Shown here: piece after piece, positions 42,906-47,338 of the stretch | How the letters are laid out: every line of letters begins with the position of its first letter | Position numbering within the stretch: position 1 is the first letter of the stretch | DNA from: Rhizobium sp. BK196 | GTDB lineage: Bacteria; Pseudomonadota; Alphaproteobacteria; Rhizobiales; Rhizobiaceae | Direction: 5' to 3' | Assembly (NCBI RefSeq): GCF_014193255.1 | Contig: NZ_JACHZB010000001.1 | Coordinates: 1-64,000 of the forward strand | DNA length: 64,000 bases | Program-made: the position numbers and the translations under genes | Notes under the pieces: generated by a model | The model's input: only the letters and a program-made list of their open reading frames with translations | Databases searched by the model: none | What the model was told of the DNA's origin: nothing

Positions 42906-44264
42906 CTATTTGCAGACGGCTCGTCCGCCCCTGCGCGACATCAGATCGAAGTGGAAATGGTTCCAGTGCTCCGGATTATAGCCGGGGCCGAGCACGGTCG
43001 TGAAGTAATTGCAGCTGTCGCTGCGCACGGCCTTCAGCAGGCGCCCTTCGCGGAAGGAGAACAGTCCCTTCTTGCGCACATCGATTTCATGGCCGTCTTT
43101 CAGCACGAACTTGCCGACATCGATGGCGTTGCCTTTCGCGTGTTCCGATATCGGATTGTATCTCTGGCGGCTGTTGTTCATGCGCCGGCAGGAATAGCCG
43201 CCGAGCGGCTCGATGGTGCGAATGCCGGTCCAGTAGCGGAATCGGGCCGACGGTGCGAGTTCGTTCTTCACCCATTTGGCGAAGGCGAGTGTTACCTGGC
43301 AATTCAGAACCACCGCCGGCTTGACGCCGATATTACCCGAAAGGCCCTTCAGCGACACCGGATATGGCACTTGGCATGACGGCCCGTTGGAGATCGGCGG
43401 GCGGTCCTCGAAGATCACGCCCATACGCTTCAGTTCGCGCCGACAGGAAAGCTCCGAGGCCGGCATGGCACCGGGATCGACGGGAGTTGCCGGCTCGCTC
43501 ATCATGGGGTTGTTCGGCCGCAGCATGGCGACCTCTTCCGGCTCATCCTCTTCCGGTACGCGCGTCGGCGCAAGAACCGGGCTGCCGTCGCTCCAGGTCT
43601 GCGCGCGGTTGCCTGCGGCGCGCATCGGCGCACGGCTCATCTGGCTGGCTGCGACCGGCTGCGGCATGGTCCGCTGGTTGAGTTGTCTCGGATTATCGGT
43701 GCCGATACCGTCGACGACTGGCTGGGTGGCATTGCCCTCGGCAATCTGCTGCTGCTCGTCCTGCGCCAGCCCCACCACCGGCTCGTTATCAGATCCGGCG
43801 CCGAGTTCCTCATCCATATTGACGCCCCCTTCGGGAACGGCGAGCGGCTTCACGCCGCCCCAGTTGCCGCCGGATGCCTCTTGCTGCTGGCCCTGTTGCT
43901 GGGCGAGCGCCTCGTCGCTGTCGATCATCGGCAAGCGCCGCCGCCCTTGCTGGGGCGTGCCCATGGGCGCCGATGGCTGTGCCGGGGCGCGCATCTGCTG
44001 GCCCGTTCCGGCAAGGTTTGGCGTATCGAGATAATCGATCTGGCCCTGCGTATTGCCGACGGGAGCGCTGGCGGCAGGATAGGGTTGCTGGCTCTCGACC
44101 GTCGCCATGCGCGCGGCCCCGCGCGCCGGCGTGATGGAGCTAACCCTGGTGCCATGATCGACATTCTCAGGCGGCACCAGGCCGTCGCTGATCGAACAGG
44201 TCGTCAATGCCGCAGAAAGCAGGACTGGCAAGGCGGTACGCCGGAGAAGGGAAAGGAACGCCAT
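42906..44264 (-). CDS. Extensin-like family exported protein
   Basis: 452 aa. The N-terminal signal LLRRTALPVLLSAALTTC may be a lipobox (TTC). About 230 residues of Gln/Pro-rich low-complexity linker follow (QQQGQQQEASGG). The C-terminal 190 residues are the extensin-like C domain (PF06904): LSCRRELKRMGV, SEHAKGNAIDVGKFVL and GYNPEHWNHFHFDL, where the His/Asp residues look like a LAS-type (peptidase M15-like) zinc site. A peptidoglycan-active envelope role is plausible. Confidence 0.9.
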   Translation of the reverse strand: MAFLSLLRRTALPVLLSAALTTCSISDGLVPPENVDHGTRVSSITPARGAARMATVESQQPYPAASAPVGNTQGQIDYLDTPNLAGTGQQMRAPAQPSAPMGTPQQGRRRLPMIDSDEALAQQQGQQQEASGGNWGGVKPLAVPEGGVNMDEELGAGSDNEPVVGLAQDEQQQIAEGNATQPVVDGIGTDNPRQLNQRTMPQPVAASQMSRAPMRAAGNRAQTWSDGSPVLAPTRVPEEDEPEEVAMLRPNNPMMSEPATPVDPGAMPASELSCRRELKRMGVIFEDRPPISNGPSCQVPYPVSLKGLSGNIGVKPAVVLNCQVTLAFAKWVKNELAPSARFRYWTGIRTIEPLGGYSCRRMNNSRQRYNPISEHAKGNAIDVGKFVLKDGHEIDVRKKGLFSFREGRLLKAVRSDSCNYFTTVLGPGYNPEHWNHFHFDLMSRRGGRAVCK

Positions 44265-44485
44265 ACTATCGCTTCCGCATGCGGCCTGTGATCGGAAAAC
44301 CTCGATTCAAATTTAATTAAAAACGGTGAATGAAAGCTTTACGTGTGGAGAATGGTTTATCGTGAGGGTCAACACTCGCTGGAGAGGTATCTCCACACCG
44401 CGGGATTAGAGGATGCCCTTGAAAGCCGTTTGGTGAGCCGGTCCGCTCAAGCTTTCCACCGCACATCGCGAAAGGCGCAAACGAA

Positions 44486-44867
44486 ATGAACACACTTGAA
44501 ATCCGCATCGAAGAAATCCGTGCACGCGAGGAGGCCTTGCATCGGCCGGAGATACGCCGCTCCCGCCAGGCCTTGGAAGACCTGCTGGCGGAGAGCTTTT
44601 GCGAATTCGGCGCATCGGTGACAGTTTATCGGCGCGCCGACATGATCGAACTTCTGCTGCGGGAAACCGACAGCGCCGGTAACGGCGAACTTTATTCCGG
44701 CGACTATGCCTTAAGACCGATCTCGGCCGATGCTGCTCTGCTGACCTACCGCACATGGCGCAAGCAGGCGGAGATCAGAGCGGCATGTGCTGCGCAGCTC
44801 AATCTGGAAATACGACGGACGGCGCTGGCAGATGCTCTTCCACCAGGGCACGCCGACACGGCACTAG
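44486..44867 (+). pseudogene. DUF4440/NTF2-like gene broken by a +1 frameshift
   Basis: The frame opened at ATG 44486 gives LEIRIEEIRAREEALHRPE through LLTYRTWRKQ, an NTF2-like DUF4440 protein. After about 44760 the expected continuation (SERHVLRSSIWKYDGRRWQM, then LFHQGTPTRH and TAG at 44867) is found in the next frame, so one extra base lies near 44758-44775. Corrected length is 126 aa, normal for the family. Without correction the frame runs on and fuses in frame to the following gene. Either a sequencing error or a real mutation. Confidence 0.8.
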
Positions 44868-44995
44868 CGCCACAAGCGGATCGTCGATCCGGCGCCGGCG
44901 CCTCCGCGAAGGCCGGTCATTGCTTTGGGCCTATTGGCATCCCCAGCCGGCACCATACCTACTGCACCATGAGCCCGTACTCAGGAAAACAACCG

Positions 44996-45427
44996 ATGGA
45001 AGCGGCAGTAGAAAAATTACTCGAGCGCTACCAACGCCTTTTCCGGCAGGCACTCGCCGGCAAAGCCGATATGGATGAGGTCGCCACCCTCTATGCCTCC
45101 GATGTCATCGCCGCCTCGCCTGCCGGAGTCAGGTCCAGCAAGAATGACGATGGACTCAAGCGGATGATGGCGCAGGGTTATGAGCGCTATCGCTCCATTG
45201 GCACCAAGGAGATGACGCTTCGGCATATTCGCCTTTCGACGGTCGATGAGAGCCACTGTGTTGCCCGTGTCGCCTGGAGGGCAACTTATGCCCACAAGGA
45301 CCAACCGGACACCGACATTGACTTCGAGGTCCATTACCTCGTGCAGGTTCTGGATGGAGATGCGAAAGTCTTCGGCTGGGTCTCCGGCGACGAGCAGGCG
45401 CTCTTGAAGCAGCATGGTATCGGCTGA
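44996..45427 (+). CDS. NTF2-like (SnoaL-type) protein
   Basis: 143 aa: MEAAVEKLLERYQRLFRQAL, YASDVIAASPAG, and alternating strands to FEVHYLVQVLDGDAKVFGWVSGDEQ, a cone-shaped NTF2-like fold. Function unknown. AGGA lies 9 nt before ATG 44996. Its frame is open back into the frameshifted DUF4440 gene, so an automated caller may merge the two. Confidence 0.75.
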   Translation: MEAAVEKLLERYQRLFRQALAGKADMDEVATLYASDVIAASPAGVRSSKNDDGLKRMMAQGYERYRSIGTKEMTLRHIRLSTVDESHCVARVAWRATYAHKDQPDTDIDFEVHYLVQVLDGDAKVFGWVSGDEQALLKQHGIG

Positions 45428-45466
45428 CGCGCTGCCAGACCTGACCTGTCTTCGGAGGAAAAACAT

Positions 45467-45495
45467 AGGGCCGCGGCAACCAACGCCGCGGCCCT
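45467..45495. terminator. Bidirectional terminator
   Basis: Perfect 11-bp arms AGGGCCGCGGC/GCCGCGGCCCT with a 7-nt loop between two convergent genes. The minus side continues TATGTTTTT. Confidence 0.75.
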
Positions 45496-45517
45496 TTGTC
45501 GTCACATCAGCAGCCTG

Positions 45518-47338
45518 TCAAGCCGCCCGGCCGTACTGGGCACCCTGCCCGGCCTGACCGCGCAGCCGGAACTTCGACAGCAGCGCCCGCAGTTGCTGGC
45601 TTTCCTCCGCAAGGGTCTGGCTGGCGGCCGTGGTCTCCTCGACCATCGCCGCATTCTGCTGGGTCATCTGGTCCATATGATTGACCGAGGTGTTGATCTC
45701 GTGCAGCCCGGTCGCCTGTTCGCGGGCGGCGGTGGCGATGGTGTCGACATGGGCGTTGACGCGGTTCACCAGGGCCTCGATTTCGACCAGCGCATCGCCG
45801 GTGGAGCGCACCAGCGCCACGCCGCCTTCGACTTCGGCTGCCGAGCTCGAAATCAGCGTCTTGATCTCCTTGGCCGCATTGGCCGAGCGCTGCGCCAGCT
45901 CGCGTACTTCCTGCGCCACAACGGCAAAACCGCGGCCCGCCTCGCCCGCACGGGCCGCTTCCACGCCGGCGTTCAGCGCCAGGAGGTTGGTCTGGAAGGC
46001 GATCTCGTCGATGACGCCGATGATCTGGCTGATGCGGCTTGAACTATTCTCGATGCGGCTCATGGCCGAGACGGCATTGCGGACGATCTCGCCGGATTTG
46101 CCGGCACTCGTCTTCGTCTCCGCCACCATGTTGCGTGCCTCATTGGCACGCTCGGAGGCAGTGCGCACCGTGGCGGTGATCTCGTCCAGCGCGGCTGCCG
46201 TCTCTTCGAGCGCTGCGGCCTGCTGCTCGGTGCGCTTGGAGAGGTTGTTGGTCGCCTCGCTGATATCTCGGGCGCTGTCATTGACGACATGGCTCGATTC
46301 CGCGATCGCATTGATGACGCTGTTCAACGCATCGACGGCGGCGTTGAAGTCGGACCTGAGCTTGGCGTAATCCTGGCCGAGATCATCGATTGCAACCGTC
46401 AGGTCACCCGCTGCAAGCCGTTCCAGCCCGGCGCCGAGCGCGCGCATCGCCGCCGTCTGGCGTTCGGAGGACGAGCGCAGGCTCGCCTCGTTGCCGCGCC
46501 GCTCGCTTTCGATCTCCTGCCGGCGCTCGTCTTCGCGAACGCGCAGTTCCGCCCGCTCGGCAACGGAGTCGCGCAGCACGATCAGCGATTTCGCCATCTG
46601 GCCGATCTCGTCGCGCCGGTCGGCGTCTGATATCTCCACGGAAGCGTCTTCGTCGGCAATCGCATTCATAGCGGCCTTCAGACGTGCAACCGGCGTCGTC
46701 ACGCTGCGCACGATGGCATAGGCGATGGCGAGGGTGGCGATGGCGCCGATCAGGCAGAGAGCCGCGGCCCAGATCGCATTCTGGCGATAGAGCGCAGCAA
46801 GGTCATCCGCATAGACGCCGGTGCCGACGACCCAGCCCCAGGGCTGAAAACCTGCCACGTGCGAATATTTCAGCACCGGCTGGTCGGCGCCGGGTTTCGG
46901 CCAATAGTAATCTACGAAGCCCTGCCCGTTCGCCTTCACCGTATTGACGAATTCAACGAACAGGAACTTGCCGTTCGGGTCCTTGTTCTGTGTGAGATCC
47001 TTGCCGTTGAGTTCGGGCTTGACCGGATGCATCACCATGACAGGATGCATGTCGTTGATCCAGAAATAGCCGGTACCGCCGCCGTAGCGCATCGAGGCGA
47101 TTACTTCCTTGGCGGCCTCCTGCGCCTGCTCGCGGGTCATCGTGCCCGCTTGCTCCAGCTTGTAATATTTATCGAAGATGGCAAGCGCCGTGGCGTCCAT
47201 CTGCGCCAGACCGGCTTTGCGCTCGGCCTCCAGCTCCTGATAGGAATAGTTGAGAAAGAAGATCATCGTCGCGGCCAGCACGACAAGCGCGAAGGCGACG
47301 AGGCTGTAGAGGCGGGTTGAAATCCTGATGTTGCGCAT
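45518..47338 (-). CDS. Methyl-accepting chemotaxis protein with Cache sensor
   Basis: 606 aa. TM1 about 10-30, periplasmic sCache_2-type domain about 35-185 ([47 protein letters not shown]), TM2 about 190-210, HAMP, then the signalling domain with [20 protein letters not shown] and [20 protein letters not shown]. No CheR-tether pentapeptide at the C-terminus (ends YGRAA). Cache domains of this type bind small carboxylates. Confidence 0.94.

Follow-up and report, generated by a model that had tools for sequence, protein, structure and literature searches.

The open reading frame (ORF) of 313 codons at the centre of this analysis is an ordinary locus, a recently frameshifted accessory gene (gene 1) beside an intact one (gene 2), in the 64,000-nucleotide stretch of Rhizobium sp. 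BK196 DNA analysed here, which we call the window. As judged from sequence comparison, a recent inactivating deletion in a dispensable accessory gene 1 explains it with a probability of roughly 80%. Gene 1 would be a small accessory gene encoding an NTF2-like (DUF4440) protein, located at a chromosomal site that gains and loses genes, and gene 2 beside it would be another NTF2-like gene, either unrelated in function or paralogous. A recent small deletion, with a net loss of two bases, would have put gene 1 out of frame at residue 96–97, just before its last two β-strands. By chance, the shifted frame would then stay free of stop codons across the former 3′ end and the spacer, joining the frame of gene 2. 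The locus would then really consist of a pseudogene and, behind it, an intact gene 2 that has its own start; 44486–45427 should be annotated as two genes, the first of them frameshifted, and not as a single 313-aa fusion. The positions of all features are collected in Table 1.

Table 1. Features of the gene 1–gene 2 locus and its flanks, in window coordinates
Feature	Position	Strand	Description and evidence
Extensin-like gene (left flank)	42906..44264	-	Extensin-like_C, E 4.9e-51; aligned in 9/9 relatives compared
Fortuitous 313-aa ORF	44486..45427	+	Joins truncated gene 1 to gene 2 through the spacer
Gene 1, 5′ part in frame	44486..44772	+	N-terminal part of DUF4440/NTF2-like protein; Pfam DUF4440, E 3.3e-7
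Frame break	44771..44774	+	Alignment; two-piece orthologue match; ORFs of G171, G157 and G161
Gene 1, 3′ part in +1 frame	44775..44867	+	Last two β-strands of orthologue; native stop TAG at 44865–44867
Intergenic spacer	44868..44995	+	Read through only by the fused ORF; alignment, closed frame in three relatives
Gene 2	44996..45427	+	Separate 143-aa SnoaL/NTF2-like protein; own ATG, AGGAAAA stretch just upstream
Terminator-like stem-loop	45467..45495	-	Between convergent gene 2 and chemoreceptor gene; consensus match only
Methyl-accepting chemotaxis protein gene (right flank)	45518..47338	-	MCPsignal, E 4.1e-51; aligned in 9/9 relatives compared

Break point and fold of gene 1

The ORF was confirmed in the window, with an ATG start and a length of 313 aa. 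Aligned with the syntenic orthologues of G171, G157 and G161, to which its N-terminal piece is 76–77% identical, the window has two bases fewer, and the exact break position is ambiguous within the four bases 44771–44774. The ORFs of each of these three relatives indicate the same split. Taking a full-length, 127-aa orthologue (L046:6001-6381) as reference, residues 3–96 matched window positions 44492–44773 (74% identity, E 1.4e-38) and residues 97–126 matched 44772–44861 in the next frame (93% identity, E 7.9e-14), a two-piece match in adjacent frames that, by these alignment scores, is far above chance. From 44775, the +1 frame reads SERHVLRSSIWKYDGRRWQMLFHQGTPTRH and then reaches the native TAG. 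The earlier note had placed the C-terminus of the first protein in the +1 frame with a stop at 44867, and the frameshift within 44758–44775; the tail and its stop were found there, and the break falls inside that interval. Across 11 aligned natural orthologues, the glycine at the break site is invariant, and the preceding aspartate and following serine are nearly invariant.

The intact orthologue covers the whole DUF4440 profile (PF14534; positions 1–107 of 107, 54.8 bits, E 1.5e-14), and its predicted structure resembles solved members of the NTF2-like superfamily. The window copy differs in being broken at residue 96–97: its residues 1–90, in a single frame, match profile positions 1–76 of 107 only (31.1 bits against a cut-off of 25.2), and no single reading frame of the window holds a complete DUF4440 domain, the C-terminal 30 residues lying in the +1 frame. 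The model of the G157 orthologue (mean pLDDT 88.8) has the helices on a curved, mixed β-sheet that define the NTF2-like fold. Foldseek searches with this model returned NTF2-like entries (E about 1e-6) and CaMKII association domains, 2r4i (TM 0.69–0.71) being one example, and a sequence search of the PDB with the orthologue gave no match at E values up to 1.

In the predicted model, the last two strands of the orthologue comprise residues 99–110 and 115–125, exactly the part removed by the break. Because these two strands are lost, the truncated gene 1 product is expected to be non-functional, and a 313-aa product, if made, would be without a working first-domain fold. PMC3924330 describes DUF4440 as co-occurring with alpha/beta hydrolases. 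Our literature searches for DUF4440 and gene 1 found no function for gene 1, and the NCBIfam profiles contained no family for its orthologue.

Orthologues across the genus and the origin of the break

The N-terminal piece of gene 1 finds matches in 92 of the 148 congeneric genomes, a count that includes the genome of the window, and the full-length orthologue gave 118 matches across 94 of the 148. By a count made by eye from the match table, whose match column also sums to 118, 107 of these matches are unbroken to residue 123 or further and 11 are not. The 11 interrupted rows comprise the two pieces of the window and seven loci that are broken or incomplete elsewhere: G153 is split between two frames near residue 80; G063 changes frame after residue 117; G140 matches in two pieces, one on each strand; the match in G107:C5 extends no further than residue 76; G164 and G152 each have a second, incomplete copy; and G117 contains a single in-frame TGA. 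In G153 and G063 the gene 1 tail is still present, in another frame. Among the 118 matches, no other genome has a break at the window's position. In a separate genome scan, 11 of 12 loci stayed open as far as the HQ[GA]T end, and only L051 of Rhizobium altiplani did not; the scan and the 148-genome set share genomes, so the two counts are not independent. A plasmid collection held 12 records with partial gene 1 matches, none of them covering 80% of the query and none from the same species.

In the G152 fragment (G152:C70:39800-41800, L132), the 33 C-terminal residues of a gene 1 relative directly follow an HTH-type N-terminal reading frame, and the fragment is apparently a recombination remnant. 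We take the N-terminus ahead of it to be TetR-like.

The substitution pattern bears on the age of the break. Compared with G171, G157 and G161, dN/dS before the break is 0.22, 0.16 and 0.18, respectively. After the break it is 0.21, 0.10 and 0.08 in the native frame (30 codons, with 8–10 changes in each comparison). In contrast, the tail read in the fused frame gives 0.95, 2.77 and 3.15, again from 8–10 changes each. Post-break substitutions thus fit the native frame and not the fused one; with so few changes this is a weak test of constraint, and it points to a recent break, although the pattern would equally accompany a sequence error and does not choose between the two.

Such an error, in assembly or sequencing, would mean that the real gene 1 of the strain is intact and that two bases are missing from the deposited sequence only. 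The apparent constraint on the native frame would be expected in that case as well, and among the 118 orthologue matches the break is seen in a single assembly. Several observations argue against it, however. The break site is not a homopolymer, and the usual sequencing error is a single-base change in a homopolymer rather than a two-base loss. The assembly, in 16 contigs, has a completeness of 99.71% and a contamination of 0.02%. As a rough control, no second break in the window was flagged by G098 and G134 at a shared position, and the gene 1 family breaks independently in other genomes, which makes real decay plausible. Besides gene 1, this rough comparison gave 10 rows with window-side frame splits from 63 ORFs of G098 and 4 rows from 52 ORFs of G134; the only region flagged by both lies near 23.5 kb, at different points. 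Gene 1 was the sole window split flagged by G157 (12 ORFs), G171 (9) and G161 (9), and none was flagged by G027 or G148 (7 ORFs each), both of which are without gene 1. We consider an error unlikely, though with a real share of the probability. Because the loss spans two bases outside a homopolymer, the assembly statistics are good, no second break is shared and gene 1 decays independently elsewhere, we lean towards a real deletion, present in the organism and not just in the assembly.

A programmed ribosomal frameshift (+1 or −2) would yield a full-length DUF4440 protein from two frames, and the +1 tail is indeed intact to its native stop. However, the syntenic orthologues are continuous, no other genome breaks at this position, and a simple heptamer scan of gene 1 found its sole slippery-like heptamer at 44661, more than 100 bases upstream and out of register, leaving none at the site. 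On these grounds the programmed shift was rejected as scarcely credible. A structured RNA at the break site was likewise rejected, as an Rfam search of 44200–45600 gave no match at E values up to 1. Of the three readings offered by the earlier note (error, recent mutation or programmed shift), recent mutation is therefore the best supported; the programmed shift falls away, while error keeps a minor place.

The read-through frame and gene 2

In G171, G157 and G161, the frame followed by the window's ORF past the break closes after 38 codons (3/3), and the spacers of the relatives differ in the alignment by indels whose lengths are not divisible by three. For 74 codons of such base composition, the probability of containing no stop is about 0.14, and landing in the frame of gene 2 would add a further factor of about 1/3; given these odds, the fusion itself requires no special cause. 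On this comparison, the 313-aa ORF is fortuitous and not a conserved fusion, and the earlier note's view of the 313-aa protein as artificial is borne out by the closed frame. Orthologues that are all 313-aa fusions with the same middle sequence, an outcome the earlier note had raised, were looked for; what was found instead were the uninterrupted matches and closed frames described above, and a conserved fusion was rejected.

A selected, working fusion of two NTF2-like domains would account for an ORF open over 313 codons, and DUF4440 can fuse to other domains. Within the genus, G105, G142 and G094 (L127, L128:959-1921 on the minus strand, and L129) carry a continuous fusion of DUF4440 to a GNAT acetyltransferase, the Pfam run having been made on the G142 protein only. 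These proteins share with the window's ORF a DUF4440 domain followed by a second domain in frame. However, their DUF4440 domain is complete up to HQGT, they are read in one continuous frame and they are near-identical in three genomes, whereas the fusion in the window is unique and its first domain is cut short. Furthermore, the first domain of the window's ORF is without its last two strands, the linking frame is closed in relatives, the linker derives from out-of-frame and intergenic DNA, and G134, G027 and G148 have an intact gene 2 with no gene 1 at the site. A selected fusion is therefore highly improbable. Very improbable, too, is a newborn chimera, in which a real deletion has become fixed and the 313-aa product is made, with the truncated NTF2-like domain and an intergenic-derived linker ahead of an intact NTF2-like protein. 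Were it made, the level, oligomer or localisation of the gene 2 protein would be altered.

The recent inactivating deletion resembles an ordinary case of bacterial decay, a frameshift pseudogene with a read-through ORF. As in such cases, the orthologues are intact, the frame is broken once, the tail survives intact in the adjacent frame, and the genus contains further broken copies. The difference is that the broken frame of the window joins that of gene 2, so that an ORF caller gives a 313-aa protein and not a truncated one.

Gene 2 itself matched Pfam SnoaL_2 with an E value of 6e-5 and 24 bits, under the Pfam cut-off of 27, and had one sub-cut-off match among the NCBIfam profiles. It has matches in 22 of 148 congeneric genomes, the window counted. 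In G134, G027 and G148, all without gene 1 at the site, it is intact over all 143 residues; gene 2 thus needs neither gene 1 nor its start. At the same site, alignment revealed an internal deletion of gene 2 in G098 (L078) and a truncation in G161 (L081), so this neighbour of gene 1 decays too. In G092, G078 and G093, gene 2 is broken by stops or split matches.

Turnover at the site

We compared the site in nine relatives and aligned the interval from the extensin-like to the chemoreceptor gene for the window and seven relatives. By these alignments, the two flanking genes are the fixed neighbours of a variable site, a small chromosomal location that shows recurrent loss or breakage of two NTF2-like genes among related species. 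Gene 1 is present there in five of the nine (G171, G157, G161, G143 and G153, the copy of G153 being broken) and absent in four (G134, G098, G027 and G148). Since it is absent at the site in 4/9 relatives and broken in one of five carriers, gene 1 appears dispensable. The flank-to-flank distance is 1.26 kb in the window, 2.7 kb in G143 and 3.8 kb in G153. Extra DNA lies to the left of gene 1 in G143 (L084) and G153 (L086), and in G153 also to the right.

G027 and G148 keep a stretch matching the 3′ end of gene 1 (score 30, reached by 0 of 300 shuffles in each), and no recognisable remnant was found in G134 or G098, where 94 and 19 of 300 shuffles, respectively, reach the score. Based on the remnants of G027 and G148, gene 1 was probably ancestral to at least part of the group and lost more than once.

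Three further features of the interval were observed. Terminator-consensus sites numbered three in the region, against 0.9 expected. A block of about 85 bases immediately upstream of the extensin-like gene (44267–44351) hardly varies between the window and seven relatives, although the surrounding DNA differs by about 10%; the block is probably the 5′ UTR or promoter of that gene. At the left edge of the variable segment, in a conserved block, a 16-base inverted repeat (TGGAGA-GGTA-TCTCCA, 44380–44395) has arms that are only partly kept in the aligned relatives.
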